From a virus, in the IMG/VR virus record IMGVR_UViG_3300050025_000104, positions 1 through 43,399 of that record: a stretch of DNA of 43,399 nt; one strand, given 5' to 3'. The position numbers and the translations under genes were made by a program. Below, one piece after another: positions 9,301-42,958 of the stretch (the first letter of the stretch is position 1; each line of letters begins with the position of its first letter). The notes under the pieces are model-generated. The model was not told where the DNA came from. It ran no database searches and saw only the letters and a program-made list of their open reading frames with translations.

Positions 9301-12300
9301 ATCCGCACGTACATGCCCTAGGTCTCCACACTATAGCAGTATGATCTTCTGTAAGATGCTGAGTACGTCCATGCGTTGTTCTTATCTCTAACACAGCTTT
9401 ATGCGGCTCACGCGCATGACGTACAACCCTCTCCAAATCAACCCACTCTCCGTCATCAGAAATCTCCCACCCTCTGACTATTTTCACCTCTACACCACAG
9501 TCTGAGGTATTTATTGGAGAAAGCACCAAATCGAATAGTGCCTCTAGAGACAAGTTATGCATCACACCTGCGTGCTTCACCGTTACTACGGTTTCTGGAA
9601 TCATGGACTTCTGACAAATACCAGGTCCATGCAGACACCGCAGTGGTGACCTAACTACTACCTTACCCACATTGTTATTCCGTAGGGTGCTACGTATTTC
9701 TGGTGTGATCAAAGTACCAGCCTTGATGATGTGGCTACCTGCCTTGATATCTGCAGCAGTGAAGCGATCTAGTATGTCCTTCTCATCTACAGGCAGAGCT
9801 ATGCCCTTAGTGGTACCACAGTCAGTGTCCACGATCAGATTATTCATTACCGAGTTCATGACCTGCTTGCTGATGTAGCCAGGCTCCTGAACTGACTGGA
9901 CCTTCTGGATGATACCCTTACGAGAGCCACTGATAGCTGTCCAATAGTCAGCCACGTCCAGACCTTCAGAATAGGACCTACGTACGGGAGTAGGTATGAT
10001 CTCGCCCTTGTGATTGCTCATGAGCATGGGCGCAGCACGTATCTGCCTCAGGGTATCAGTACCACCCTTCATACCCACGTTGTGCAGGAGCATCAGATTG
10101 TTATCGCTCTCAGACACGGCCCTAAGATGCTTGTTCATCTCATCCGTAGCCTTGGCATAGATCTCAATCTGTTGTTGATCTTTGTGTGGACCAGTAAGCT
10201 TGTGTACCTTGGCATCAGCCTCAGCCAAGATCTTGTCTCTCATGTGGCGCTCAGGAGCTATGTCCTTCATGCCTATAGAGAAGGCTGTGTTCGTGGACCA
10301 CATGTTACCTAGGTCCTTCAGCTTGTTAGCTGACTCACTGTAATCACCTTTGTGATCTTTGCCGATCTCAGTGAACATGGCCTCTTGTGCCTTCTTATCC
10401 AAGGAGGCACTGCCCTCTAGCAACTTACGACGCATGCCCTCTGGTAGCGCACCTGCCACCATGAACCTTCCAACACCAGCCTTCATACCACCAACGGTCA
10501 CTCGATCTGTGAGCTTTATATCGCCCTTCCTAACAGCAGACTCCATGTCCTGCATGTTGGCGAACTTGTGATCAGTGTCCTTACCAGGCTGCATGATACC
10601 GTACAGACCTAACCTGCTCTCATTGGTAGGAGCGTACATTATCTCTCCAGTGGATGGACTGAAGAGGTTGCGTGATGGAAGCATCTTGTGTGCTTCAGCT
10701 ACAGCCTCAACACTGATAGGAACGAACGCACCCATGGCGTCACCATCAAAGTCAGCATTGAATCCACTGGTGACTAGCGGGTGAACTTGCACTGCCTTGC
10801 CGCCAACGATACGTGGCTTGAATGCCTGCACACCGTACTTGTGCAAGACAGGGTCTCGCTTCAGTAGGATAGGTCTGGTAGATATGACCTTCTCCAGTGC
10901 CCTATCCACAATCTCTCCACCCTCTGCCATCTTCTTCTGCGCCTGTAAGGGAGTGATGCCTAACAGATTTCGCAATTCACGAATCACGAAAGGTTTGTAG
11001 ACTTCCAGCGCTGCAGACTTGGGCAGGCCTACCTCATCCAATCCCAACGATGGCTCAGGGATGATGGTGCCACGCATAGACATGTCTTGCTTGCGCTCAA
11101 CCAACTGATCTTGGAAGAAGCCTTCCTTAGGAGAGCCACCCTTGGCACCAGTCCTTGGATCGATAACCTTCTTGCCGTGGATGTAATCCAGGATACCCCT
11201 GCGTACCTGCTTCGGATACCCACCGATACCAGCTAGTGCGCTAAGGCCATCGTACATTTCCTGGCGTACGTCTACCTTAGATGAGTCGTTGTCTGGGATG
11301 AGAGGAGACATCTTTGCGTACCTAGACGCAGACAGATGCAGGTTCTTGTACAGACCATTCAAGTCCTCTTCACTGATCGTTCCGTTAGGTAGCACTGGTA
11401 ATGGACGCATGGATGGCGGGAGTATTGGTACCGTCTTGGTCAGGTACGCTTCAACCGGAGTCATGTTCACCTTGTCCAGCGCCTGCAGAAGCTTCACCTT
11501 ACTGTTGGCGTGATCTAGGTACGTGCCCTTAAGTGTAGGCTTTTCTAGTGCTGTCTTAGCTGCAGCCAAATCCTTCTTGACGTTTATCTTACCGAGCATG
11601 TGCTCGAAAGCTTTGCCGCCTACCAGACCACCCTCAATCCTTTGAGAGTCACCGATCTTACCTGTCTTAGGATCGTATGCCAGTGAACCACCTACTAGCC
11701 CAATGAATTCCTTCTGCTTGATACCGAGCAGCCTGATGATGGCGCTCTCAAACACTGGGTTGGGTAGAGATTCTGGAAGTGTGTAGTGGGACCACTTAGT
11801 CCCCTCTAGCCCTCCTGTAATCTTTGGATCGAACAGACCGCCTATCTCAGGCTTCATGTTCTTTGCGGTGACCCATAGTGCAGGGTCTGTAATCTCACCG
11901 TTGCTTTGCTCTACGATCTGCTTGTCAGTCATAGGCATGAGGGTCAGGTTGTTTCCCGTCTTCTGTACGTTCACACCAAGGCCCCTGATGTACCCAAGGA
12001 ACTTGCTGTAAGCGAAGGTTGGCTTAGGAGTAGGCAGCATCTCACCAGCCTGCAGGGCAGACCAGAACTGATCTCCTTGAGCAGCGTCACTCTTGAGTGT
12101 CTGCATCTCCCGTAGGTTAGCCACTGCACCGTGAGCCAGCATGGAATACAGGCCCAGGGTACCTAAAGACTTGGCTCCCTGAGGACCGCCGCCCTTTGGG
12201 ATCAGGTTCTTATCGTAGGCGTATCCAGTACCACCAGCTCTAGAGCTCAGCTTCTTCTCTACCTGGTGGTGGAGTTTGAACACATGCATAGGACCAACGA

Positions 12301-14923
12301 GTACATCACCCATCTTCTTGTTGGTGAGTGGGTCTATGATCTCTTCTTTGTCAGACAGTCCATGCTTGGCCAAGTCTGCCGTCACCTGTGCATGGAAGTC
12401 AGCACCAGGAGCAAAGTTCTTAACCAGGTAGGGCTTGCCGGTCTTCTCTGCAATCTTAGCAGCAGCAACCTCAAGTACCTGCCCAAGGTTTGTTCTGCCG
12501 ATTACGCCCAGTGGATTCAAAAGAATCTCTAGATGCTTTCCATCTGCAGTACGTGGCATGTCGTGGTCTGGAACGATCTTAGTAACGATACCCTTGTTAC
12601 CGTGGCGTCCTGTCAACTTGTCACCAACGTCTAGCTGCTCTTCCGTCTTCACGTGAACAGCTACGTTCTTACCTATCTTCACAACCTCTTTGACTACGCC
12701 TGGGTAATCGCTGTCCCACTTGATACTCGAATCCTTGTACGGTTTGACGATGGACTTGTGTAATTTGGAGAGCTCCAGATCTTCTCGCCTCTCTGGGTCG
12801 TTAGATGCACGCAGAGCTGCAATCAAAGTGTCCCCAGGCATGATCACAGTACCTGGCTTTACTACGCCTTCTTCATCCAGCTTATCGAACTGTGCCTTGT
12901 TCAAGGCGTTCGGCATGTAAGCCTGGAACTTCCTTCGATCTAAGATGTGTGCGATGTCTCGCTCTAAGGAATGCCTATGCAAGTGCTCAGATGTCAGCTT
13001 CTTAGCTGCACTCTCACTGACCACGATACCATCGTCAAAGTTGTAGCCCTTGTATGGCATGAACCCAGCACGAAGGTTCGTTCCTATGGCCAAAGTACCG
13101 TTCTTCGTATAGTTCGTATCGGCTATGACCTGTTGTGCTTTTACTGTGTCTCCCACCTTCACTATGGGTTCGGCGTGAAGGAAGGCCTTGTCTTCATTGA
13201 GAGGGAAGTGATCGTAAATATGTACTTCCTTCTTCTCTCCATTAGGCTTCTTGATAATGATGGCATCTGGCTTGATCTTGTAGACCACACCATCAACTGG
13301 TGTTCTATGACTAGCAAAGCCACCGACTAGTGTATCGAAGCTAGTCTTACCAGCCATACTCTGAACGAGTGGAACCTCCCTGTGCTTCAAGGAGATAGCC
13401 TGTTCCATCTGTCTACCGGCCATGGTGCTACGATTGGGGTGATCAGATGGCATGAACGGGATCATGTTAGACGAGATTGAAAACATCTGAAGTGGGTCCT
13501 TCATTACGAAGTCCGCATCCTTCAAACTACCCTCATATATCTCGTTAGCAGGACCACTGATCTTGATATGAGATCCTATTGCCTTAGGCTTCCCATCAAC
13601 CCACGTTACTTGATCTGGTAGTACAACGTGAGACTTATACGCTACGGTTGGATTGACCTTTACATTCTTGCCAGTCTTAGCGTTGTACATGAGCACGGCC
13701 ACATCGTGCCCAATCTTTTGCACACCCAATGGCAACCGCAGGGTGATGCCCGTAGCATGGCCTTCTGGTGTGTGGATGGGGTCTAAGAATCCTAAGTGAG
13801 ACGGATCGATTAGCTTGGCATCATCAGACACTGTGTGCTCAGACTTGATACCGCCATCACCCATGATGGTAGTTTTCATCTGTGCCGAGATCATCTCTAG
13901 TGGGTTGGTCTGATCTGTTACGATAGCCAAAGAGTTCTTACCGAACATCTGCTTGATGGGTCGGTTAAATATTTCAGGAGCAACAATGTCACGCACCTTA
14001 GCTTTGCGATCAATATTGTTGCTCACCTTCTTCAAGATCTCACGAGAGCCCTTGATAATACGCTCTGCTGCGAAGTCCTCAATCGAGTGGAGGTCCTTGA
14101 ACATGAGAGCATCACGAGGGTCTGGCTTAGCCTCACCTCGAGATATTTTGAGAAGCTTGTCTGAAGCATCTAGTAGTGTATGCCCCGTAACATTCGTGTA
14201 CTCTTTACCTAGCGTGAACTTGGTCACCTCTGGACGAAGGATAGTCTTCTGCATCGTCTCCCAGAGATGGGCCTTAGCCTCATCAGGAGTGAGCTTGGTT
14301 GCCTTGTCTCCAGTAGATGCACGATAAAACTTGGCCAGCTCTTTGTTGGAGTCAGCATGGTTGACATCAACAATATCTTTACCCCAGCTCTTCTCTACCT
14401 CTTCATCTGACACACCCATGGCGTGCAAGAAAGGTTTGAGTGGCATGTTAGAGTTGCCATAGTTCAAAGTGAACTGTCGAGTCTTAGGATCAAAGTGAAT
14501 CTTGAATCCACCAGCAGCATTGAAGTGCGACTCGAGCGCACCGTCCTGCTTGATCATGTTGTATACACCAGGTTTCAAACGCCACTGGTTATCTATTTGA
14601 TACTCCTGCCCATCAACAATGTGGCTGAACCGACTGGTAACCTTTGGAAGATTGAGCAGATTCATTTTCTGCTTATCTATCACCGCACCAGTGGCGTTAT
14701 CCTTGAGAGCAAGGACCGCTTCTACAGGAACAGACCAAGTACGCCCACTAAGCTTGGCTTGTTTCTGCGACCTGAGATCATCCATATCCAGGTTATCTTT
14801 TACCGCTACACTCTGTAGCTCTAGCGTATTCTTCCGCCCGATAATGGGGAAGAGTCCGCTAACTGCATTTTGTACTCGGTCTTTGAGGAGTTCAAACCCC
14901 TCTTCCGGTGCAAGACGTGCCAA
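6326..14923 (-). CDS. Single-chain DNA-directed RNA polymerase, beta fused to beta-prime, with two inteins (2865 aa precursor)
   Basis: The beta part shows 'LDPIHTPEGHATGI', 'MPYKGYNFDDGIVVSE' and 'GDKLTGRHGNKG' followed by 'LNPLGVIGRTNLGQ', all canonical bacterial beta motifs. Near residue 1000 it passes into beta-prime with 'PILPPSMRPLPVLPNG', 'GLPKSAALEVYKPF' and 'ILLKRDPVLHKYGVQAF'. The catalytic 'NADFDGD' has Asp 1391, 1393 and 1395. Bridge-helix and trigger-loop motifs follow ('GQALGERTTQLALKAFH', then 'TGGTAS'). The N-terminal beta-prime zinc finger is absent, while the second zinc site is present. Removing two inteins of 410 and 398 residues gives about 2057 aa, far smaller than E. 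coli beta plus beta-prime. The start is TTG (14923-14921) with GAGGA four bases upstream. No alpha, omega or sigma gene is in the window. It probably transcribes late phage genes, which is an inference. Confidence 0.95.
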   Translation of the reverse strand: MARLAPEEGFELLKDRVQNAVSGLFPIIGRKNTLELQSVAVKDNLDMDDLRSQKQAKLSGRTWSVPVEAVLALKDNATGAVIDKQKMNLLNLPKVTSRFSHIVDGQEYQIDNQWRLKPGVYNMIKQDGALESHFNAAGGFKIHFDPKTRQFTLNYGNSNMPLKPFLHAMGVSDEEVEKSWGKDIVDVNHADSNKELAKFYRASTGDKATKLTPDEAKAHLWETMQKTILRPEVTKFTLGKEYTNVTGHTLLDASDKLLKISRGEAKPDPRDALMFKDLHSIEDFAAERIIKGSREILKKVSNNIDRKAKVRDIVAPEIFNRPIKQMFGKNSLAIVTDQTNPLEMISAQMKTTIMGDGGIKSEHTVSDDAKLIDPSHLGFLDPIHTPEGHATGITLRLPLGVQKIGHDVAVLMYNAKTGKNVKVNPTVAYKSHVVLPDQVTWVDGKPKAIGSHIKISGPANEIYEGSLKDADFVMKDPLQMFSISSNMIPFMPSDHPNRSTMAGRQMEQAISLKHREVPLVQSMAGKTSFDTLVGGFASHRTPVDGVVYKIKPDAIIIKKPNGEKKEVHIYDHFPLNEDKAFLHAEPIVKVGDTVKAQQVIADTNYTKNGTLAIGTNLRAGFMPYKGYNFDDGIVVSESAAKKLTSEHLHRHSLERDIAHILDRRKFQAYMPNALNKAQFDKLDEEGVVKPGTVIMPGDTLIAALRASNDPERREDLELSKLHKSIVKPYKDSSIKWDSDYPGVVKEVVKIGKNVAVHVKTEEQLDVGDKLTGRHGNKGIVTKIVPDHDMPRTADGKHLEILLNPLGVIGRTNLGQVLEVAAAKIAEKTGKPYLVKNFAPGADFHAQVTADLAKHGLSDKEEIIDPLTNKKMGDVLVGPMHVFKLHHQVEKKLSSRAGGTGYAYDKNLIPKGGGPQGAKSLGTLGLYSMLAHGAVANLREMQTLKSDAAQGDQFWSALQAGEMLPTPKPTFAYSKFLGYIRGLGVNVQKTGNNLTLMPMTDKQIVEQSNGEITDPALWVTAKNMKPEIGGLFDPKITGGLEGTKWSHYTLPESLPNPVFESAIIRLLGIKQKEFIGLVGGSLAYDPKTGKIGDSQRIEGGLVGGKAFEHMLGKINVKKDLAAAKTALEKPTLKGTYLDHANSKVKLLQALDKVNMTPVEAYLTKTVPILPPSMRPLPVLPNGTISEEDLNGLYKNLHLSASRYAKMSPLIPDNDSSKVDVRQEMYDGLSALAGIGGYPKQVRRGILDYIHGKKVIDPRTGAKGGSPKEGFFQDQLVERKQDMSMRGTIIPEPSLGLDEVGLPKSAALEVYKPFVIRELRNLLGITPLQAQKKMAEGGEIVDRALEKVISTRPILLKRDPVLHKYGVQAFKPRIVGGKAVQVHPLVTSGFNADFDGDAMGAFVPISVEAVAEAHKMLPSRNLFSPSTGEIMYAPTNESRLGLYGIMQPGKDTDHKFANMQDMESAVRKGDIKLTDRVTVGGMKAGVGRFMVAGALPEGMRRKLLEGSASLDKKAQEAMFTEIGKDHKGDYSESANKLKDLGNMWSTNTAFSIGMKDIAPERHMRDKILAEADAKVHKLTGPHKDQQQIEIYAKATDEMNKHLRAVSESDNNLMLLHNVGMKGGTDTLRQIRAAPMLMSNHKGEIIPTPVRRSYSEGLDVADYWTAISGSRKGIIQKVQSVQEPGYISKQVMNSVMNNLIVDTDCGTTKGIALPVDEKDILDRFTAADIKAGSHIIKAGTLITPEIRSTLRNNNVGKVVVRSPLRCLHGPGICQKSMIPETVVTVKHAGVMHNLSLEALFDLVLSPINTSDCGVEVKIVRGWEISDDGEWVDLERVVRHAREPHKAVLEIRTTHGRTQHLTEDHTAIVWRPRACTCGSLRISIDNRSPDDKAYLYCRDCERSWTVDRESWELAERLEIRADQVMPGDRLRYYPFQKQFRGRKPETPTLNPYWLGLYLAEGSTDRNRDYPRSVSIAQQDNQWRPGMIEACRFVTKNEPHVNETGIVLNDVTLVRELVSVLGGLELCDRKVLPTTWLSWDDSYVGDVVAGLIDGDGHVRERANGSHEVLIGSTSYTLLVQVQDWLSRHSVRADLSCKTQTPEQGDAVKTRKDFFHLTFSANSSMLDRLSRSQKMQGMSACDGKYDLNKQYATVLRVKDVSDRIHCKYVYDVTTHSRKFTANGLLTHNCYGLTENGVLPEKGLNVGVLAGQALGERTTQLALKAFHCSHAKSIVFVRGAHTGVLPITMEALFDLIESPIYMNGTEEVKSVSGWQVWDSEWVNLTHVRRHPPSRPMKLVGDGGLVTICQDNHPLGVWENKVRCTRCGYRKFKNPHKKSRQYCRQCGSPQEAPIEKMGELTFLPPSDLLRNDVYLHRDVSPIMYVRAATTLDVDAYIAGVFLAEGSTAWKKSSKRAVEKPYQVQISQKSGPIQDKIMSRLRKAGWRPRRHKRYVEMDSLKLGTFFNDTFGRYSSNKHLPFDFLGYPTDWLVEMLIGLIDGDGTVLPQSDGPDAINIDSTSFVLVQQIALLCTRLGLVSSIVSTTIRKLTRHQGFAIRIRMTKDAKELLHASEKVRKTTGVSPTRLPEITGYRLVSVVKDVMYTDAYVYDATTETGTLYVSGIKHHNTGGTASSKSALVDDFSHVKNLLAFPKTLPGSATLSELNGKVTKIAPSPAGGHEVTVEGHVHYIPHSLGTPTYGGQPLKVGMEVKKGSPLSEGLVNPHEMLALTGIEPVQLHLASELHSAYAGSGIRRRNHEVVVKALTNLTKIKDPGSADGLIRGDFASTAHVSNINRTMPKGSRPIIHEPILKGVNVLPLEMQEDWIAKLNHENLSETIIDAAQRGWTSSIHSQHPIPAIVYGAEIGKSPEGKVGY
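7070..8263 (-). other. Intein 2 (LAGLIDADG), inserted in the trigger loop
   Basis: This covers precursor residues 2221-2618 (398 aa). It begins with Cys directly after the extein 'LKAFH' and ends 'GIKHHN' before Thr+1 of 'TGGTAS', so the splice residues (Cys1, penultimate His, terminal Asn, Thr+1) are intact. Block B is degenerate ('CQDNHPLGVW'). Two LAGLIDADG motifs are present, 'IAGVFLAEGST' and 'LIGLIDGDGTV', with block F 'YVYDATTETGTLYVSG'. A zinc ribbon (CTRCG, then CRQCG) sits between block B and the endonuclease. The extein His before the junction aligns with E. coli beta-prime His936, the trigger-loop residue. Confidence 0.93.
8378..9607 (-). other. Intein 1 (LAGLIDADG), inserted at the second zinc site of beta-prime
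   Basis: This covers precursor residues 1773-2182 (410 aa). It begins with Ser after the extein 'GPGICQK' and ends 'GLLTHN' before Cys+1 of 'CYGLTENG'. Block B is clear ('TQHLTEDHTAIVW'). The endonuclease motifs are 'LGLYLAEGST' and 'VAGLIDGDGHV', and block F is 'KYVYDVTTHSRKFTANG'. A zinc ribbon (CTCG, then YCRDC) follows block B. Cys+1 (residue 2183) aligns with E. coli beta-prime Cys898, so the polymerase zinc site C1763, C1770 and C2183 plus an upstream Cys can form only after splicing. It resembles intein 2 throughout. Confidence 0.93.
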
Positions 14924-34493: not shown

Positions 34494-36428
34494 TTGGCCG
34501 GAATTCTTCAGGATCTTCCCCCCGTTGAATGGGTAGACAACCCAGAGAGCATGATGAGATTTGTACGCCACGCTCGAGATACGAGTGAATGTGCGCTAGA
34601 TACTGAGACTACTGGACTAAGCCGATGGAAAGATCATGTTGTGGTCTGGTCTGCTTGTCCGTCTGAAGAGAAGCGATACTGCTTCAGTAGAGATATGCTT
34701 CCGATCTTTGATGCGGAACTGTCCCAAGATCCGAACATGACTTGGTGGCTGACTAACATGACGTTCGACTTCTGTATGCTGGCCAACTCAGGCGTACGTG
34801 CACCAGTAGGAAACGCCTACTGTACGTTGGCTATGGACTGGCTGTATGACGAGAACAGAGCAGGCTTCCACGGTCTGAAAGAGACAGCTCTGCACTACTG
34901 CGATCTGAATATGGCGAGCTTCAAAGATACCTTCGCCAAGAAGTTCAAGGATGACACCACAGAGATACGTATTCTTCGTGGGCTCAAAGAAGACTTCCGA
35001 AGCGCCATCAACTACGCCTCTCTAGATGCGTACGCCACCTTCATAGTGAAGGACAAGCTACGTGAGCTACTGGCAAATGAAGAGATGGTGAATAATCAGT
35101 CTCTCTGGGACTACTTCCAAGAGATTGAGATGCCATTCACCAGAGTCCTCTACAACCTGATACGTAGAGGCATCATGATTGATACCGGTTACCTCGAGGA
35201 TTTGAAACCTCGGATGACAGATTCAATCAACCAACTAGAACGCAAGATCAACAAGATAGCTGGCAAGGAATTGAATCTACGAAGTACACCACAGCTTCGT
35301 TGGCTACTGTTTGATAAGCTAGGGCTCAAGCCCATCAAGAAGACTAAGAGTGGGGCACCATCTACAGATGAAGGTACTCTGAATCAATATGCAGATGACG
35401 GAGTAGAAGTCTGCAAACTGATCTCGCAACTCCGCAAGGTCAACAAGATCAAGAGCACCTATGTAGAGGGGTTGTCTGCCTGCGCAGATCTGGATGGGCG
35501 TGTACACCCTACCCTCACCCAGCACGTGACTGTTACTGGACGACTGAGCTCTGTAGAGCCCAACCTTCAGAACATTCCCCGCCCAGACAACGATGTCTAC
35601 CACCTACGTGAAGCATTCATACCTCGACACGGATATTGCTTCGCAGTGTTTGACTACAGCCAGCTAGAGATGAGGTTACTAGCTCACGAGTCTGGCGATG
35701 AGAATATGATCGGGGTCATCAATCGTGGGTGGGACATTCACGCAGGTACTGCCTGCATGATGTACAACTACGACTATGCCGAACTAACTAAGGCCCTCAA
35801 GAAAAAGAAGAACCCACAGGCAATACTGAACGAGCTGGAAATTGCGATGTGCTTTGCACGTCAAGCTTCCAAGACCATCGGATTCGGTCTGTCCTACGGC
35901 GAGGGCCCAAAGAAACTAGCACACAGCCTTGGTATCACAGTACCAGAAGCTCAGGTTAAGATCGAAGACTACTTCCGTCCATACCCCAAAGTCCGTCAGT
36001 TCATACAGAACACCCACAGAGACATCCGTGAGTGCCACATGGTTCGTACTGTCACCGGTCGTCCACGTAGGTTCCCTACCATGGAGACACTGGGGTACAT
36101 GACCAGGTGGGAGATGAACGGTATGCAAAAGGGAGAGCTGGCCAGAGCAGAACGACAAGCAGTCAACTCACGTATCCAGGGCTCTGCTGCAGATGTAGCA
36201 CGTAGAGCAATGATCTTGTGTGAGTTTGACCAGCAATTAGCAAACCTAGGCGTACAGATGCTTCTTCAGATCCACGATGAGCTCATATTCGAAGTGCCTG
36301 AAGAGAGCATCAAAGAAGCACTACCAATCATCAAACACAAAATGGAACACCCATTTCCCTATGATCTATCCGTACCGCTGGATTGTGATGGCGGTAGTGG
36401 TTACTCATGGGCTGCAGCAAAGGGATAG
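34494..36428 (+). CDS. DNA polymerase, family A, with 3'-5' exonuclease, 644 aa
   Basis: The start is TTG (34494) with AAGGAGG eight bases upstream; no in-frame ATG is better placed. The exonuclease has 'ALDTETTG' (Asp36, Glu38), 'NMTFDFCML', and later 'NYASLDAYATF'. The polymerase palm has motif A 'FAVFDYSQLEMRLLAH' (Asp387), motif B 'RQASKTIGFGLSYG' and motif C 'LLQIHDELIFEV' (Asp595). 'GSAADVARRAM' is another expected element. There is no 5'-nuclease domain, so it resembles T7-type and SPO1-like replicases. It should be the replicative enzyme here. It lies behind a strong terminator. Confidence 0.95.
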   Translation: MAGILQDLPPVEWVDNPESMMRFVRHARDTSECALDTETTGLSRWKDHVVVWSACPSEEKRYCFSRDMLPIFDAELSQDPNMTWWLTNMTFDFCMLANSGVRAPVGNAYCTLAMDWLYDENRAGFHGLKETALHYCDLNMASFKDTFAKKFKDDTTEIRILRGLKEDFRSAINYASLDAYATFIVKDKLRELLANEEMVNNQSLWDYFQEIEMPFTRVLYNLIRRGIMIDTGYLEDLKPRMTDSINQLERKINKIAGKELNLRSTPQLRWLLFDKLGLKPIKKTKSGAPSTDEGTLNQYADDGVEVCKLISQLRKVNKIKSTYVEGLSACADLDGRVHPTLTQHVTVTGRLSSVEPNLQNIPRPDNDVYHLREAFIPRHGYCFAVFDYSQLEMRLLAHESGDENMIGVINRGWDIHAGTACMMYNYDYAELTKALKKKKNPQAILNELEIAMCFARQASKTIGFGLSYGEGPKKLAHSLGITVPEAQVKIEDYFRPYPKVRQFIQNTHRDIRECHMVRTVTGRPRRFPTMETLGYMTRWEMNGMQKGELARAERQAVNSRIQGSAADVARRAMILCEFDQQLANLGVQMLLQIHDELIFEVPEESIKEALPIIKHKMEHPFPYDLSVPLDCDGGSGYSWAAAKG

Positions 36429-36429
36429 T

Positions 36430-36846
36430 ATGACGTACCTGCAGTTGATCGCTAAGGTATCCGAAGAAACACAATACACTAAGCGAGAGGTTCGTAGCCT
36501 ACTCCGACAGATAGCACGTACGATAGGTGACTCTCTGATCGTCGGTCAAAATGTACAGTGGGATGCACTAGGTACTTTCCTGAACCTGCATGCTGCAGCC
36601 AAGAGAGTACGTAACTACAAGACTGGCGAATGGTATTGGATCGATGCCAGAAGAAGGATAAAATTCAAGCCAAGCATAGATCTGAGACTCAACGTAGCCA
36701 ATTCGACTGCGCAGTTTCAAGAATCAGATGTAGTGAACCAATACCTACCCAAGGAGACAGCAGATGGAAAAGTACGCAGTGGTAATAGACCCAAAGAAGG
36801 TAGAACAAGAAAAGACGGCAGGAAAGGGGCTGCCATCCGATCCTAA
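36430..36846 (+). CDS. HU/IHF-family DNA-binding protein, 138 aa
   Basis: The start is at ATG 36430, one base after the polymerase stop. The HU pattern is clear: 'LIAKVSEETQYTKREVRSLL', 'DSLIVGQNVQWDALGTFLNL' and 'AAAKRVRNYKTGEWYWIDARRR' (read as separate motifs), ending 'FKPSIDLRLNV'. HU dimers bend DNA and could assist replication or packaging. A basic, disordered extension of about 45 residues follows the normal ~90-residue fold. That extension overlaps a 53-aa reading frame with its own ribosome site. Confidence 0.82.
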   Translation: MTYLQLIAKVSEETQYTKREVRSLLRQIARTIGDSLIVGQNVQWDALGTFLNLHAAAKRVRNYKTGEWYWIDARRRIKFKPSIDLRLNVANSTAQFQESDVVNQYLPKETADGKVRSGNRPKEGRTRKDGRKGAAIRS

Positions 36847-36925
36847 CTCGAACATACCCCTAGACCCAGAGAAAGGCTCCCTACCATATGAGCAAGACAT
36901 CGAGAGGGAAGTACCCAAGACCTAG
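36764..36925 (+). CDS. Overlapping 53-aa protein within the HU tail region
   Basis: ATG 36764 has AAGGAG eight bases upstream, the best ribosome site in this stretch. The peptide is charged ('MEKYAVVIDPKKVEQEK') and Pro/Asp/Glu-rich. It overlaps the HU extension by 83 nt in another frame and the endonuclease VII start by 38 nt. Its codons look protein-like, but length and overlap make it tentative. Confidence 0.4.
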   Translation: MEKYAVVIDPKKVEQEKTAGKGLPSDPNSNIPLDPEKGSLPYEQDIEREVPKT

Positions 36926-37484
36926 GGCTATGAGTGCTCTGGAGGAGCGAGACAGACTTGAATGGCAGAAACATCTATGTGCTATGTGTTTCTGCCCACT
37001 CAAAAGCTTGCCCTATCCAGACGGTAGTAAGTACTGCAAAGATCATGATCATGACACAGATAAGATACGTGGGCTTATCTGTGTGAAGTGCAACACTAAA
37101 CTAGGTGTTCTGGGTGATTCTCTGAAGACAATCAAAGAGTCTGTAGATCAAGCCACAATATACTTGAAGAAGACTGAGGGACCGTGGGAGTACAAAGGTA
37201 GGGAGTACGTCACCAAGTCAGCGTTGATCTTTGCATACCTAGATGGTAACCAGGTATTTCTTGGAAACGAGATACCACCTAATCTGAAACAGGCCAGGAT
37301 TGATCTAGATCTGTACCTAGTACATGGTGAGTTCGGAGCTCGCCTAGCTGACTACTGTGACATGGTTAGAAAAGACGAACACGGTCGATACAAAGTGAGC
37401 AGGGTACAGCTAAAAAAAGGCAAAAGCGGAAGGAAGTACATCTTGAATAGCAGCAATACACAGGCTGAGGTGATCAATGGCTAA
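36888..37484 (+). CDS. Endonuclease VII-like HNH nuclease, 198 aa
   Basis: 'HLCAMC' (Cys31, Cys34), 'YCKDHDHDTDKIRGLICVKCN' and 'LGVLGDSLKTIKESVDQATIYL' reproduce the T4 gp49 (recombination endonuclease VII) signature: a zinc site of two Cys pairs around a His-Asp active site. T4 gp49 resolves branched DNA before packaging, though relatives also serve as homing enzymes. The extra ~100-residue C terminus is not in gp49. The location beside HU and recombinase genes suits a recombination role. The ATG lies inside the previous overlapping frame, and the stop overlaps the RecA start. Confidence 0.85.
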   Translation: MSKTSRGKYPRPRAMSALEERDRLEWQKHLCAMCFCPLKSLPYPDGSKYCKDHDHDTDKIRGLICVKCNTKLGVLGDSLKTIKESVDQATIYLKKTEGPWEYKGREYVTKSALIFAYLDGNQVFLGNEIPPNLKQARIDLDLYLVHGEFGARLADYCDMVRKDEHGRYKVSRVQLKKGKSGRKYILNSSNTQAEVING

Positions 37485-38799
37485 GGGTAAGAAAGCAGCA
37501 TCTGCACTAGAGCGAGTAGACATCTCTAAGATCCCACGCACGGATACCAATGAATTATTGGATGCTCTTCAAGCCAAACTGGGTGGAGATGGGGTGGTGC
37601 TACAGCGTGGTGAGGAGATTGAGGGTCGCTTCGATCTCCGCAGACCTAGCGGTATCATTCAGCTAGACATTGCGTGCGGCGGCGGCTTACCGGCTGGTGG
37701 TCTGTCTCAGATAGATGGTCTGGATGGCATCGGTAAGAACCTGCTACTCAACTACTATCTTGCCAAGCAGCAACGCATCTACAAGGATGCATGCAACCTA
37801 GGCATGGTCTGTCTAGAGGGCCCATTCGACAAGCTGTTTGCTAGAGCCATTGGTGTAAAGGTGGCACTGTCTGACTACGAGATAGAGGCCATAGGTAGGG
37901 AGAGGCACCTCAAAGGACAGCCAGAGCTGAAGCCTGAAGAGGTGGACGAATTCAAAGAACAGATCGGTAACTTCCACGTATTCCGTGGGGCAGCTGCCGA
38001 GAAGATCTTGGAAGGTGTTGTGGACTGGGTATCATGCAATTCGTATCAACTCATTGGTATCGATTCCTGGGATGCCATGCTGACCATTGCTGAAGACACT
38101 AAGGAACTCGAGGATAATGCCAAGGTAGCAGATGCATCCAATGTTCAGACCCGCTGGATGCGTAAGGTCTTTGGTGCTCTTTCCCCGCAGAAGCTATGCC
38201 CCTCTTGCTTCAGTAGACCACTAGGCTTCAAGCCTTTTGGTAAGGGCAACTTCGCCTACGAGTGCGGTAACAAAGACTGTGGGTGGAGGGGACAGCGTCC
38301 GTACATGTGGGAGAACGAGACTACTATCATTGGTCTCCGACAAGTACGAGCCAATATGAACAAGATGGGTATGCACGGCAGGGAGTACAAGACCACTGGC
38401 GCATATGCTCTACGACATGGAAAAATGATCGACATCCAACTACGTCGTGGTGAAAACATCCTGTTCAAGGACAAGAAGATAGGCAAAGAGATCACATGGG
38501 AACTGACCAAAGGAAAGGCAGGTACCCATGAAGGCCTCACTGGTACATACAGCTACTACTTCAATCCACCAGAGATTGATGTGGCCGCAGACCTACAGAA
38601 CTATTGCAACTCCAACGACATCATCACGTATGGCGGTCCTAAGGCAGGCTTCCTACTCAAGGATGGTGAGAACGAGCCCATCAAGCTCGGTACCAAGGAA
38701 GAGCTGCAGCGTCGTATTGAAGAGGATGAGGAGCTCCAGCAACTACTTCGAATCGCTGCCATCCGACACGCAGGCCAAGGACACGTAAGGTACAAGTAA
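37477..38799 (+). CDS. RecA/UvsX-like recombinase with altered P-loop and zinc ribbon, 440 aa
   Basis: The RecA architecture is clear: 'GLPAGGLSQIDGLDGIGKNLL' ahead of the motor, Walker B 'QLIGIDSWDAML', then 'GLRQVRANM' and 'TGAYALRHGKMIDIQLRR', matching 'NQlR' and 'GG.ALkf.ai.ldirr'. The P-loop is GLDGIGKN (Lys87, Asn88), where Thr/Ser is expected. A zinc ribbon (CPSC, then CGNKDCGW) of about 40 residues is inserted after Walker B and before the strand with 'TTIIGLRQV'. It should pair DNA strands in phage recombination. The nuclease neighbours on both sides support that. Confidence 0.88.
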   Translation: MAKGKKAASALERVDISKIPRTDTNELLDALQAKLGGDGVVLQRGEEIEGRFDLRRPSGIIQLDIACGGGLPAGGLSQIDGLDGIGKNLLLNYYLAKQQRIYKDACNLGMVCLEGPFDKLFARAIGVKVALSDYEIEAIGRERHLKGQPELKPEEVDEFKEQIGNFHVFRGAAAEKILEGVVDWVSCNSYQLIGIDSWDAMLTIAEDTKELEDNAKVADASNVQTRWMRKVFGALSPQKLCPSCFSRPLGFKPFGKGNFAYECGNKDCGWRGQRPYMWENETTIIGLRQVRANMNKMGMHGREYKTTGAYALRHGKMIDIQLRRGENILFKDKKIGKEITWELTKGKAGTHEGLTGTYSYYFNPPEIDVAADLQNYCNSNDIITYGGPKAGFLLKDGENEPIKLGTKEELQRRIEEDEELQQLLRIAAIRHAGQGHVRYK

Positions 38800-39338
38800 T
38801 GGGTACCGAACTGGAGCTAGGTGTACGTTATGTGGGCTTTGGTCTATCCTGCAACAACTGCGGTAAGATCAGAGAGACCACTAGGTACGTTCTTAGAAAT
38901 GCACAGACGGGAGACATTCTGCAAGACTTCCGTCTGTGCGACCAGTGTCAAGACAAAGGTCACGTAATCAAGTTCGTTATACAGTATGCAGACCCTGCAT
39001 CAGCTAAGAGAGCAGCACGTAGAATCCACCTATCCAGATCTATGGAACGTGGCCTTGCTGCTGATGTGGGTGGTAAGGTACAGCCTGGCTCTGGCAACCA
39101 GGATGCTAAAGATGATGTTCGTGTGCATGGGGAGTGGAGATTCGAGCACAAGTACACTGACAGCATGAGGAGTTACTCTTTACATCCCAGCGATCTGGAG
39201 GCTGTTGCAAGACACGCCAACTTGATGGGAGAGAAGCCTGCTTTGGTGCTGAACTTCCGCAAGCTAGACAAACGATTCGTCACAATACCTTACGATCTCT
39301 TCCTCGAACTAATGGAGAAACTACGTGAATCAAGTTGA
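38799..39338 (+). CDS. PD-(D/E)XK nuclease, possible Holliday junction resolvase, 179 aa
   Basis: An N-terminal zinc finger (CNNCG and CDQC) precedes the nuclease part. 'GGKVQPGSGNQDAKDDVRV' and 'WRFEHKYT' fit the Gly/Ser, Asp and Glu-x-Lys positions of Hjc-like PD-(D/E)XK enzymes, with 'ALVLNFRK' as the following strand. The active-site assignment is by eye. TAATG overlaps the RecA stop, and the next gene overlaps at the end. The operon also has RusA and endonuclease VII. Confidence 0.65.
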   Translation: MGTELELGVRYVGFGLSCNNCGKIRETTRYVLRNAQTGDILQDFRLCDQCQDKGHVIKFVIQYADPASAKRAARRIHLSRSMERGLAADVGGKVQPGSGNQDAKDDVRVHGEWRFEHKYTDSMRSYSLHPSDLEAVARHANLMGEKPALVLNFRKLDKRFVTIPYDLFLELMEKLRESS

Positions 39339-40203
39339 ACTGACATCCATTCCACACAGTCTTGACTTCAACAAGACTGTGCTTCAACACATAATGGTCA
39401 AAGATCGAATAGAGTCTTTGCTTGAAGACATGAACATAGAGCCTGTTCAGATGAAGGGCGAGCTACTCATAGGAGACTCTGACAGAAGGAAGAACATCTT
39501 CCACGCATCTGAGATAGGCAGACTCACAGGCAAGACCCTAGACGGCAAGTATCCAATGGGGTGTGGTCGTGCCCTGTACTACTCGTACATAGGAGCCAAG
39601 TCAGAGAACTCCTGGGAACCAAAGCTACGTCGCATATTCGATACCGGCTCTGCTATACACCTCCAGCTCCAGCTATACCTTGCTCAGTACGCAAAGAAGC
39701 ACAAGAAGACTGACAAGTTCGAAGCAGAGGTATCTATCAATCCAGAGAACAATGCAATGGCAGATCGATATGACATCTCTGCTCACATGGACGGAGCATA
39801 TGAGTTCATCATACCAGCCATCCATGCTAGAGCAGGTCTAGAGATCAAGACCATCAATGATGCCGGGTTCAAAGGCACCAGTGGGCCACATGCAGAGCAC
39901 CTGATACAGGGCACCGTGTACCAGGCCTGTCTAGATCTGCCTATAATGATCTTCCTGTACTACAACAAGAACGATTCCAGTATGGCTGAGTACGTACAAG
40001 TATTTGATCCGCAGAGATGGGACGCCATCACTAGGAAGTTGGACTACGTACGTGAGCATGCTTTGAGACAGGAAGAGCCAGAGCGTGAGCAAAGCTTTGC
40101 CTGTAGAAACTGCAAGTACGCTCAGATCTGCAAGCCACCGAAGCTACTAAAGGGACCGCCAGCGGCAAGCATCTTTCGAAGTAACCGACGGAAGGAGGAA
40201 TAA
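39325..40203 (+). CDS. Cas4/RecB-like nuclease with Fe-S-type cysteines, 292 aa
   Basis: PD-(D/E)XK core: 'HMDGAYEF' (Asp), 'GLEIKTIND' (Glu-x-Lys) and 'LIQGTVYQACL' (Gln-x4-Tyr-type). One early Cys ('GCGRALYY') plus a C-terminal 'FACRNCKYAQIC' make a four-Cys cluster, as in Cas4 and AddB-type [4Fe-4S] nucleases. Phage Cas4-like proteins usually belong to replication and recombination modules and process DNA ends; there is no CRISPR array here. It is coupled to neighbours by overlaps. Confidence 0.8.
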   Translation: MNQVELTSIPHSLDFNKTVLQHIMVKDRIESLLEDMNIEPVQMKGELLIGDSDRRKNIFHASEIGRLTGKTLDGKYPMGCGRALYYSYIGAKSENSWEPKLRRIFDTGSAIHLQLQLYLAQYAKKHKKTDKFEAEVSINPENNAMADRYDISAHMDGAYEFIIPAIHARAGLEIKTINDAGFKGTSGPHAEHLIQGTVYQACLDLPIMIFLYYNKNDSSMAEYVQVFDPQRWDAITRKLDYVREHALRQEEPEREQSFACRNCKYAQICKPPKLLKGPPAASIFRSNRRKEE

Positions 40204-40805
40204 TGCTAACTACAGAGGCAGACTACACTCAAGGAGTAAACATCTACGCACAAGCCGTAGACAAAGGAGATGCTGATCTAACCACGTGGGGCTTTCCAGT
40301 AGCAGAGAGACCACGTCGTGGACAGGAGTTGTCGGATAGGCCCAGCTTACCTGAACGCATCAGCGATCTGGATATGCCGAGCCTACTAGACCTGCTAGTG
40401 TGGTACACCGCTTGGTATGATTACGCTAGTAACCTAGTACCAAATGCACGCACAACTAAGAATGCTGCTGAGTCTGCTCGAGACTTTGCATGGGCTAAAA
40501 TAAGGCGTGAAAAGATCGCCGAGAAGACAGTGTCTGACAAGGATGATGCCACACGTACGGACATGCGGTACATCAGACTCAATGCAGACCTTGAAACCGC
40601 AGACTATAAGTACACCATGCTCAAGGCCATCTCTGAGGGCTTGTACAGGGACATTGAAACCATCTCCAGGGCAATCACTGGGCTAGAGCACAGGAACAAC
40701 ATAGATGGTCACCGGTACACTGGTGAGCGCAAAGCTAACTCTGAAGGGGTGGGTCCTTCCAGAACAGATGTTCTATCTAGGTTCCGCAGAAAGCCAGGAC
40801 AGTGA
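40203..40805 (+). CDS. Unrecognised 200-aa helical protein
   Basis: TAATG overlaps the Cas4-like stop. Residues about 55-150 are a string of helices rich in Leu, Ala and Arg ('LLDLLVWYTAWYDYASNLV'), probably a helical bundle. The C-terminal 40 residues are basic and flexible. No motif found. Its place between Cas4-like and RusA genes suggests a recombination accessory role, by context only. Confidence 0.65.
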   Translation: MLTTEADYTQGVNIYAQAVDKGDADLTTWGFPVAERPRRGQELSDRPSLPERISDLDMPSLLDLLVWYTAWYDYASNLVPNARTTKNAAESARDFAWAKIRREKIAEKTVSDKDDATRTDMRYIRLNADLETADYKYTMLKAISEGLYRDIETISRAITGLEHRNNIDGHRYTGERKANSEGVGPSRTDVLSRFRRKPGQ

Positions 40806-41257
40806 GCGAACTACGAGTATGGATTGATAGGCTTCCGCCATCTTCCAACAAAATCTATATCAACATACCCCGTAAGGGTAGGTTCCTTTCTCCAGAAGCC
40901 AGAGCTTTCAAGGTCTTTGCCATGAGAGCTATCCAACAAGAAGGTAGGGTAGCTTTCCTAGGACTGAAAGCAAACGTACCATATGAGTTACGCTTGACGG
41001 TATTCTTCGATCAAGTAGAGTACCTGAAATCTGCGAAGGGAATGAGGTATAAGCGGATAGATCTTAGCAACCAAGTTAAGCTAATCGAAGACACCATTGC
41101 AGAGGCCATTGGTATCGGAGACGAGCATAACTTCAGGCTCATCCTGGAGAAGCACTGTGATCCAGACCATCCAGGTATGTACATTTCCATTCACCCCATC
41201 TCTGAAGATCGAGTGGGGCTGACAAAGGAGCAGTACGATGCCACGTGCAAACTATGA
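40802..41257 (+). CDS. RusA-family Holliday junction resolvase, 151 aa
   Basis: The start is GTG overlapping the preceding TGA. 'VWIDRLPPSSNKIY' is the RusA N-terminal strand, and 'KRIDLSNQVKLIEDTIAEAIGI' with 'GDEHNF' carries the catalytic Asp residues (family 'D.dN..K...D.l' then 'DD'). RusA dimers cut four-way junctions symmetrically. The length is close to E. coli RusA (120) with a longer middle. An AAAT-N17-GGTATAAG sequence (41027-41053) inside the gene may be a chance match. Confidence 0.85.
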   Translation: MSELRVWIDRLPPSSNKIYINIPRKGRFLSPEARAFKVFAMRAIQQEGRVAFLGLKANVPYELRLTVFFDQVEYLKSAKGMRYKRIDLSNQVKLIEDTIAEAIGIGDEHNFRLILEKHCDPDHPGMYISIHPISEDRVGLTKEQYDATCKL

Positions 41258-41600
41258 CAACATGAACGTAACTGAGCTAGTAGCTCTAGGTAGGAAGGCA
41301 GGATTCCTGAGTGCCCACAGAGGTATGGGCAGGGAGATCTTGATAGGAGTCCTTGTTGGTGATATTGACCCCAACGACGTAGACTCACCAGACCCAATAG
41401 ATGAAGAACGAGAGCTCATGCTCTATCTTCAAGAGACACATCCGGACGCAATACTGTGTCAGTTGAAGTGCAAGTCAGAGGATTACTTCTGTCCTCTCTG
41501 CCCTCCAGCTCGAGTAGCAGTGTGTGCAGTCATTGAGTGTAACGAGGGTCTTAGAGCTAGGAACAAGGCCGACATGCTGCGTGGTAGGCGCAGTCCATAA
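41238..41600 (+). CDS. SAP/HeH-like N terminus with a cysteine cluster, 120 aa
   Basis: ATG 41238 has AAGGAG seven bases upstream and overlaps RusA. Residues about 8-45 ('NMNVTELVALGRKAGF', then 'GMGREILIGVLVGDI') look like a small helix-extended-helix of the SAP/HeH type, often binding nucleic acid. A Cys-rich segment follows ('CQLKC', 'FCPLC', 'VC', 'EC'), suited to zinc binding. No known protein was recognised. It joins two more SAP-like stretches downstream. Confidence 0.6.
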   Translation: MPRANYDNMNVTELVALGRKAGFLSAHRGMGREILIGVLVGDIDPNDVDSPDPIDEERELMLYLQETHPDAILCQLKCKSEDYFCPLCPPARVAVCAVIECNEGLRARNKADMLRGRRSP

Positions 41601-41824
41601 TGCGCTCATGTACAACGTGTCAGCACATAAAAGACTGCTCAGTAGTTAGTGAAACGAAGCTAATAACAGGATACTATTGCGACTCTTGGGTACGTGCTGC
41701 CGACAATGAGATGAAAGCACGAGCTCAGATAGAACAAGAATTCGGACCTTGGGCACTCAGGTTCGAAAATCCTAAATTGCAGAGTGCCAAGCCGACAAGC
41801 AGGAGACGACATCGAAATGGCTAA
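41600..41824 (+). CDS. Small cysteine protein, 74 aa
   Basis: TAATG overlap with the previous gene. Cysteines at the start ('RSCTTCQHIKDC') and 'YYCDSW' could form a zinc or Fe-S site. The end is basic ('TSRRRHRNG'). It overlaps the next gene by eight bases. Function unknown. Confidence 0.6.
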   Translation: MRSCTTCQHIKDCSVVSETKLITGYYCDSWVRAADNEMKARAQIEQEFGPWALRFENPKLQSAKPTSRRRHRNG

Positions 41825-42323
41825 CACCTATACCCGTGAAGACCTCGAAGGAATGCGCCGATCTGAAATCCGTACACTGGCAGTCAGTGATGAATTCGGT
41901 ATGGCTCCAAAGGAAGCAGTCAGTGCTGCATCCAAGGACCTCATTGAATTCATTCTGAGCAAGCAGGGTGGGGAAGGTAAGAAGGCAGCAAGTAAGAAGG
42001 GTGCGCTTAAGTCCGTACCAGAAGAAGTAGTAGCTCCAGAGGAAGTTGTTCCCGAGGGAGAACCAGAAGAGGCTCCTGCCGAAGCTAAGCCAGGCAAGTC
42101 TTCCAAGAAGGAAGAAAACGCTGTCACTGGCCGCATTGACAAGCTTGGTCTGGCATTGGACGATGCTGAGAAGAACATCAAGACTGACATTGCTGGTATC
42201 CAGCAGCAGGTATACGTACTAATGGCTATGGTCAAGCTCATGCTTGGAACCACCGATCTAGAGCCATCTGATGTCGATGAAGCCATCACGAAGGCAAACG
42301 ATGACTTCAACGAGGGAAAATAG
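41817..42323 (+). CDS. SAP-like and coiled-coil protein, 168 aa (0-frame product)
   Basis: ATG 41817 with AGGAG 11 bases upstream. Residues about 5-45 ('REDLEGMRRSEIRTLA', 'ASKDLIEFIL') look like a SAP-type domain. A Lys/Ala then Pro/Glu/Val linker covers residues 50-100. A helix ('LGLALDDAEKNIKTDIAGIQQQV') with a hydrophobic end follows. The frame ends at TAG 42321-42323, exactly behind GGGAAAA, and a -1 shift there would add 62 residues (total about 230). Last protein-coding gene of the long replication operon. Confidence 0.7.
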   Translation: MANTYTREDLEGMRRSEIRTLAVSDEFGMAPKEAVSAASKDLIEFILSKQGGEGKKAASKKGALKSVPEEVVAPEEVVPEGEPEEAPAEAKPGKSSKKEENAVTGRIDKLGLALDDAEKNIKTDIAGIQQQVYVLMAMVKLMLGTTDLEPSDVDEAITKANDDFNEGK

Positions 42324-42343
42324 TTAGGGACTCTCGAGATCCC
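42314..42343 (+). promoter_or_regulatory. Candidate programmed -1 ribosomal frameshift site
   Basis: GGGAAAA (42314-42320) is a correctly phased X-XXY-YYZ heptamer: zero-frame codons GGA AAA, then TAG. A 6-nt spacer separates it from a hairpin (42327-42343) with GGGA/TCCC and TC/GA pairs, a bulged C and a TCGA loop. The -1 frame (from ATA 42320) stays open to TGA 42506. It has no ATG, GTG or TTG between its preceding TGA (42302-42304) and a late ATG near 42422. The hairpin is short, so efficiency is unknown. Confidence 0.6.
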
Positions 42344-42508
42344 ATACCTCCATCTTCTGGGGATGTACACACCTTCAACCTAGAAGACCTCGAGCTGCTG
42401 AGCTTTGATGAACTACGAGAAATGTTGGACGGATACGTTGTCTACAAATCACTAGCAGTAGTCACCAAAGAAGAAGCAATCAAAGCACTACAAGCAAACA
42501 CACTATGA
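42320..42508 (+). CDS. -1 frame extension of the SAP-like protein, 62 codons
   Basis: It reads 'IVRDSRDPIPPSSGDVHTF', then 'LEDLELLSFDELREMLDG' and a helix ending 'EEAIKALQANTL', and is reached only by a -1 shift at 42314-42320. The 'LEDLELLSFDELREML' stretch resembles another SAP/Rho-N-like helix pair. An independent start would need ATG near 42422, yielding about 28 residues and wasting the SAP-like part. It may therefore be translated only as a fusion of about 230 aa. The alternative is a degraded gene. Confidence 0.5.
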   Translation: MVRDSRDPIPPSSGDVHTFNLEDLELLSFDELREMLDGYVVYKSLAVVTKEEAIKALQANTL

Positions 42509-42513
42509 GAAGA

Positions 42514-42542
42514 GGGGAGCTACACAGCTCCCCTTTCTTTTT
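42514..42542 (+). terminator. Rho-independent terminator of the replication operon
   Basis: An 8-bp perfect stem (GGGGAGCT, AGCTCCCC) with an ACAC loop, followed by TTTCTTTTT. It lies just after the -1 frame stop (42508), which fits the extension being part of the operon's last gene. Confidence 0.88.
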
Positions 42543-42880: not shown

Positions 42881-42954
42881 GGGCCCTTAGCTCAACTGGT
42901 TAGAGCAGACGGCTCATAACCGTCCGGTCCAGGGTTCGAATCCCTGAGGGCCCA
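42881..42954 (+). tRNA. tRNA with CAU anticodon (Met or Ile2)
   Basis: A full cloverleaf: acceptor GGGCCCT with AGGGCCC, D-arm GCTC-N9-GAGC, anticodon stem GACGG/CCGTC around loop CTCATAA (anticodon CAT), and T-arm CAGGG-TTCGAAT-CCCTG. The discriminator is A and CCA is not encoded. CAU may serve as elongator Met or, if lysidine-modified, Ile (AUA). The acceptor stem looks a little more like Ile2. The initiator form is unlikely because pair 1-72 is paired (G-C). Confidence 0.95.
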
Positions 42955-42958
42955 CGAG

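Follow-up and report, generated by a model that had tools for sequence, protein, structure and literature searches.

From a comparison of seven phages, we conclude that the last gene of a phage DNA recombination operon is very probably subject to programmed −1 ribosomal frameshifting at the heptamer G_GGA_AAA. The slip mechanism itself is ordinary, being of the textbook heptamer type; the gene, its operon and its domain arrangement are not, as judged against open-licence full text.

A slippery heptamer at the end of a recombination operon

The stretch of DNA that was analyzed (the window) spans the 43,399 bases of a linear virus record (IMGVR_UViG_3300050025_000104), in which sequence and phase were read directly. 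The 3' end of the frame-0 ORF reads ...AAC GAG GGA AAA TAG, and the features of the region are as follows.

34494..41824, + strand: rest of the operon, encoding PolA, a small ORF, endonuclease VII, a UvsX-like RecA, a Holliday-junction resolvase (phrog_2002), a Cas4-like exonuclease, a 200-aa ORF, a RusA-like resolvase, a 120-aa ORF and a 74-aa Cys-rich ORF
41817..42323, + strand: frame-0 ORF (ATG at 41817, TAG at 42321-42323) for the short product of 168 aa, with homologs in six other phages
42314..42320, + strand: slippery heptamer G_GGA_AAA in the X_XXY_YYZ phase, at the same place in 7/7 phages
42321..42323, + strand: frame-0 stop TAG, directly 3' of the heptamer, from the sequence read directly
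42320..42508, + strand: −1 frame extension of 62 codons plus TGA (42506-42508), with base 42320 read twice; long product of 230 aa
42327..42343, + strand: possible stimulatory hairpin GGGACTCTCGAGATCCC, 6 nt after the heptamer (spacer 42321-42326)
42511..42536, + strand: stem-loop of the intrinsic terminator at the operon end, with a T-rich tail to ~42544

Direct reading bore out the original prediction of a correctly phased GGGAAAA immediately before a TAG (42314-42320), and of a −1 frame that stays open for 62 codons, such that the 168-aa and 230-aa products would have a common N terminus. The extension had also been said to lack a usable start: in the window its earliest ATG/GTG/TTG is codon 35, and a stop closes the −1 frame 9 nt before the heptamer begins, in agreement with that claim. 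Likewise, the extension does end close to the operon terminator, at a distance of 2–6 nt depending on the stem start chosen, where six bases had been claimed. A stem-loop followed by a T run is also found 3' of the extension in those relatives with contigs that are long enough.

The gene sits outside a tail module and in a recombination operon, as had been proposed, with RecA, exonuclease and RusA genes as neighbors. It is the last gene of the operon and is followed by the terminator and then a tRNA gene, tRNA-Met(CAT), at window positions 42881-42955 (+), a few hundred bases 3' of the terminator. The order of the operon, in which PolA is a family A DNA polymerase, is kept in phages L004 and L010, and in the other relatives as far as their contigs reach. 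Two features of the UvsX-like RecA (37477-38799, +) recur throughout the lineage: its Walker motif is of the unusual form GxDGxGKN, and a zinc-ribbon-like segment, CPxC...C...CxW, is inserted in the protein.

PHROGs and Pfam scans of all seven members returned no tail-chaperone family, the chaperones being proteins that diverge strongly, and there is no tape-measure gene beside the frameshift gene and no link to the tail module. A 2865-aa gene of the window was considered as a tape-measure gene with an adjacent tail-chaperone frameshift, and was rejected: it encodes an RNA polymerase. This protein (6326-14923, −) contains beta-type (Rpb2 domains 3 and 6) and beta-prime-type (Rpb1 domains 1, 2, 3 and 5) RNA polymerase domains, with homing-endonuclease/intein-like segments near residues 1832-2182 and 2481-2558. 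Apparently it is a fused one-chain RNA polymerase with inteins, which recalls the polymerase of crAss-like phages.

Identification of relatives

The comparison set comprised the window and six further distinct IMG/VR phages (L004, L010, L021, L034, L024 and L027), all from metagenomes. Homology searches with the window proteins alone found no relatives, nor did the short form as a tblastn query match anything in cultured phages or viral contigs; searches with the exonuclease and with RecA/RusA patterns were the sole route. The neighboring exonuclease as a query retrieved L003/L004 (72% identical), which are one phage in two samples (identical over 12,268 bases). Degenerate patterns (two for RecA, one of them its Walker motif, and one for a RusA motif) retrieved L010, L021, L022, L020/L024 and L027; L034 is L022 read further, and L020/L024 was counted as one phage. 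Where measured, the RecA proteins of the relatives are 50–82% identical to that of the window. In each relative a homolog of the 168-aa gene sits 3' of RusA and two small ORFs, and the short product of the window is 28–70% identical to these six homologs.

The search found no relatives among prophages or host genomes, and none on plasmids. In Streptomyces phages of the BRock/GiJojo group, RecA is ~23% identical, the region is ordered differently and no recognizable homolog is annotated.

Conservation of the slip site

An in-phase heptamer is found 0–5 codons before the zero-frame stop, which may be TAG or TAA, in all seven phages. It is GGGAAAA in five (window, L004, L010, L021 and L034) and GGGAAAC in the remaining two (L024 and L027). 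The codon before GGA (GAG, CCG, CAG, AAG, CAG, CAG and GAG) specifies four amino acids (E, P, Q and K) and ends in G every time. Moreover, the Gly codon of the heptamer is GGA in 7/7, though GGA makes up only 13–34% of Gly codons in these phages. There is thus constraint on the nucleotides of the slip site beyond that on the protein, given a G-ending codon across E, P, Q and K and a Gly codon that is always GGA. Codon usage gives the synonymous choices that make the site a joint probability of ~10^-8.5 with the seven phages treated as independent, a figure that is overstated because they are related. Elsewhere in-phase GGGAAAN is rare (6 in 15,014 codons of conserved neighboring genes).

Conservation of the −1 extension

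All seven phages have a homologous extension of 61–69 aa in the −1 frame. When the 36 frame pairings were compared by local protein alignment, the best was −1 with −1 for each of the 21 phage pairs; by tblastn, the window extension matched L010 with an E value of 1.6e-13 (47% identity). Between the zero-frame stop and the −1 stop there are no stops in frame −1, compared with 3–6 per phage in frame 0 and 1–7 in frame +1, and the chance of the −1 frame being open jointly over the phages is ~10^-9 if they are independent. Differences in the extension by codon position number 756/586/922, highest at the third, and dN was below dS wherever dS could be estimated; these two measures lean toward the −1 frame because the alignment was guided by the −1 translation, on which the 36-pairing test does not depend. 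By such comparisons, the extension is under purifying selection. Conserved within it are an RDP/PxPP stretch and the pattern L..m...EL..ml...V.

The original prediction was open to challenge from relatives without −1 frame conservation, or with an extension brought in frame by a one-base correction. What we found is that the heptamer and its phase are retained in 6/6 relatives, as are the closure of the zero frame and a homologous extension in frame −1, and that in none of them is the extension in frame with the short form. Collectively, these patterns of conservation show that, on the evidence of sequence, selection has maintained both the slip site and the extension.

Alternative explanations

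The frameshift might be real and the extension not a functional second domain but mainly a regulatory element that influences, for instance, termination or the stability of the mRNA at the terminator. The −1 stop does adjoin the terminator, but regulation would have no need of the folded-domain pattern and the amino-acid conservation, with dN below dS, that are found over 61–69 codons; we regard this explanation as very unlikely.

Less probable still is a −1 frame that is a separate small gene, with translation that begins, by coupled reinitiation, at a non-AUG codon close to the stop of frame 0. In its favor, ATA is codon 1 (window) or codon 2 (L004) of the −1 frame, and GAGGG lies just upstream in the window. 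However, the early ATA is absent in L010, L021, L024 and L027, and no start of any kind is common to the phages: the first ATG/GTG/TTG falls at codon 24–41, at a position that differs among them, and rare starts are not common to them either. No start codon of the extension's own, with a ribosome binding site common to the relatives, was found in the seven phages. A stop closes the −1 frame 0 nt (L021, directly before GGG), 3 nt (L004) or 9 nt (window) ahead of the heptamer, which leaves no ordinary start available to the extension in these three phages; in each of them, the stretch in which the shift must fall is shorter than 20 nt and contains the heptamer. Reinitiation would, moreover, need neither the heptamer nor the G-ending codon before GGA, both of which are kept in 7/7.

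Transcriptional slippage on the A run would generate mixed mRNAs, and hence the same two proteins. Productive bacterial transcriptional slippage needs much longer runs, while the run here consists of four A only (three in L024 and L027), and this mechanism leaves the GGG before the A run in 7/7 unexplained, so that we consider it highly improbable. Lastly, an artifact of sequencing or assembly, or the recent loss of a single base that split one gene into a pseudogene, is compatible with the window taken alone but is refuted in practice by the 7/7 conservation of the site and the 21/21 −1/−1 pairings, given also that the arrangement recurs in seven distinct phages, that L003 and L004 agree over their 12,268 bases in two different samples, that the zero-frame stop differs (TAG or TAA, 0–5 codons after the heptamer) and that the extension is under purifying selection.

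Possible stimulatory elements

The 6-nt spacer and the foldable hairpin that had been noted in the window are present, but the hairpin is not clearly supported: it is no better than dinucleotide shuffles (z +1.07), and hence by itself constitutes weak evidence. A hairpin can be drawn 5–8 nt 3' of the heptamer in 6/7 phages, most clearly in L004 (8 bp) and L024, and it clearly beats shuffles in L004 only (z −2.9); the pooled p value over the seven phages is a modest 0.02. Upstream SD-like sequences are found in four phages (L010, L021, L024 and L027) and are absent in the other three. To our knowledge, G_GGA_AAC is not among the best slip sites for bacterial ribosomes. Both GGGAAAC sites have AGGAG upstream, which is suggestive, with two cases only. 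These phages offer a natural set of sites for testing, with GGGAAAA and GGGAAAC and with and without SD-like sequences.

Predicted domain architecture

AlphaFold2 was run on seven-sequence alignments of the short form and of the extension. Three regions of the window encode predicted structural elements.

41823..41975, + strand: N-terminal helical domain with a Rho_N/SAP-like fold, residues 3-53 (AlphaFold2 pLDDT ~90)
42102..42248, + strand: long helix, a probable coiled coil, residues 96-144 (AlphaFold2 model)
42374..42505, + strand: second Rho_N/SAP-like helical domain, predicted inside the extension (AlphaFold2 mean pLDDT 68)

Within the N-terminal domain, the confidently modeled helical part covers residues 7-50. 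The best structural match of this domain was E. coli Rho residues 1-48 (Z 7.9; 1a8v, 1.6 Å over 47 residues). The linker that follows it (residues 52-95) is of low complexity and disordered in the model. AT-hook-like motifs (RGRGR/GRGRGRP) abound in the linker of L021, L024 and L027, while that of the window and its closer relatives is acidic and rich in E, P and A. The extension was modeled with moderate confidence as three helices (23-28, 31-40 and 52-62). Its best structural match was Rho residues 1-43 (Z 4.8, 2.1 Å over 43 residues), and FAN1 and CDNF/MANF (SAP-type domains) were also among the matches. A profile comparison paired the extension with the N-terminal part of the frame-0 product, residues 3-48 (P 0.0015, with an HHalign probability of only 17%).

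Since both ends best match the same part of Rho, and since the extension aligns with the N terminus in the profile comparison, the long form probably carries Rho_N/SAP-like domains at both termini, as modeled. On an absolute scale the structural scores are low (Foldseek E > 1; for the extension, Z 4.8), and Foldseek with the whole short form gave no useful match. The original description of the protein as SAP-like holds for the fold class, in that both ends best match Rho N-terminal/SAP-type domains, but not for sequence families: neither Pfam SAP nor Pfam Rho_N gave a significant match, Rho_N reaching an E value of only 0.14, in one member.

The short product, the long product and the extension are all acidic (extension pI 4.2–5.8), which argues against simple DNA binding; the second domain is therefore no less likely to bind protein than DNA. 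At L039 (G001:C1:95961-96119, −), a 218-aa open frame of the L004 phage carries, close to its C terminus and in frame, a segment that resembles the extension (E 5.9e-4), and this second protein fits an interaction module that is used on more than one protein.

Proposed mechanism and role

A fraction of the ribosomes translating ...GAG GGA AAA TAG would slip back by one base at G_GGA_AAA, where the tRNAs on GGA and AAA would re-pair with GGG and AAA, and the slipped ribosomes would read 62 more codons. Because only part of the ribosomes would slip, one gene would yield two proteins, of 168 and 230 aa, whose N termini are the same. By fold prediction, the short form would consist of the N-terminal Rho_N/SAP-like domain, a flexible linker and the coiled coil, and the long form would add the second Rho_N/SAP-like domain.

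The coiled coil might make oligomers, in which case the rate of frameshifting would set the number of subunits with the extra binding domain. That domain might tether a partner of the phage recombination machinery, by analogy with gpGT or DnaX tau, through which some of the subunits acquire a recruiting domain. We tentatively propose that the protein serves as an oligomeric accessory or adaptor of recombination, a role that has somewhat less than an even chance of being correct. More speculatively, a fixed frameshift ratio in this lineage of uncultured phages could give mixed oligomers of a recombination accessory protein, in which most subunits have one Rho_N/SAP-like domain and some have two, such that the stoichiometry of the recombination complex would be set as it is for tails.

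Comparison with known systems

Lambda gpG/gpGT and its counterparts in other long-tailed phages also rely on a GGGAAA-type heptamer for a −1 slip shortly before a short gene ends, with a long form that is a C-terminal extension (PMC5009743). Unlike those genes, the present one closes a DNA recombination/replication operon, has no PHROGs similarity to tail chaperones and has no tape-measure neighbor. The same kind of slippery site and an extended minority isoform are found for major capsid products (T7/T3 gene 10B; GGGAAAG in the Kuravirus-like phage YF01) (PMC9965538, PMC5009743). Those are virion proteins, whereas the operon here encodes nucleic-acid enzymes. With regard to the heptamers themselves, G_GGA_AAG shows a strong propensity to shift in E. 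coli, and the haloarchaeal virus HCTV-1 has G_GGA_AAC as a g-t site (PMC5009743).

The dnaX products tau and gamma resemble the present case in belonging to a DNA-metabolism gene and in having a common N terminus, with extra domains on the longer form. In some bacteria tau is the frameshifted form and the gamma stop lies directly after the site (PMC5009743). By contrast, DnaX is an unrelated protein of a cellular gene, and in E. coli it is the shorter form that arises by frameshifting. By predicted fold, the N-terminal domain and the extension alike are matched best by the N-terminal helical domain of Rho and by SAP-type domains; the proteins here differ in being acidic and in lacking a significant sequence match to them.

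Few phage frameshifts outside structural genes were found in the open-licence full-text literature, namely the predicted one in the Quimbyvirus DGR reverse transcriptase (PMC8008677) and that in cro of Lactobacillus phage A2 (PMC5009743). Both lie outside structural genes, as here, but in other genes and with another arrangement, and the A2 cro product is shorter. In one phage collection, the 2476 annotated frameshifted genes comprised 2397 tail chaperones and 79 hypothetical genes (PMC10885494). Standard ORF calling yields the short frame only, and consequently the long isoform would be missed in every such genome. Conserved programmed frameshifts of phages are known mainly from tail chaperones and from capsid or tail proteins; a case in a recombination operon, kept while RecA diverged to ~50% identity, would show that frameshifting also serves DNA metabolism.
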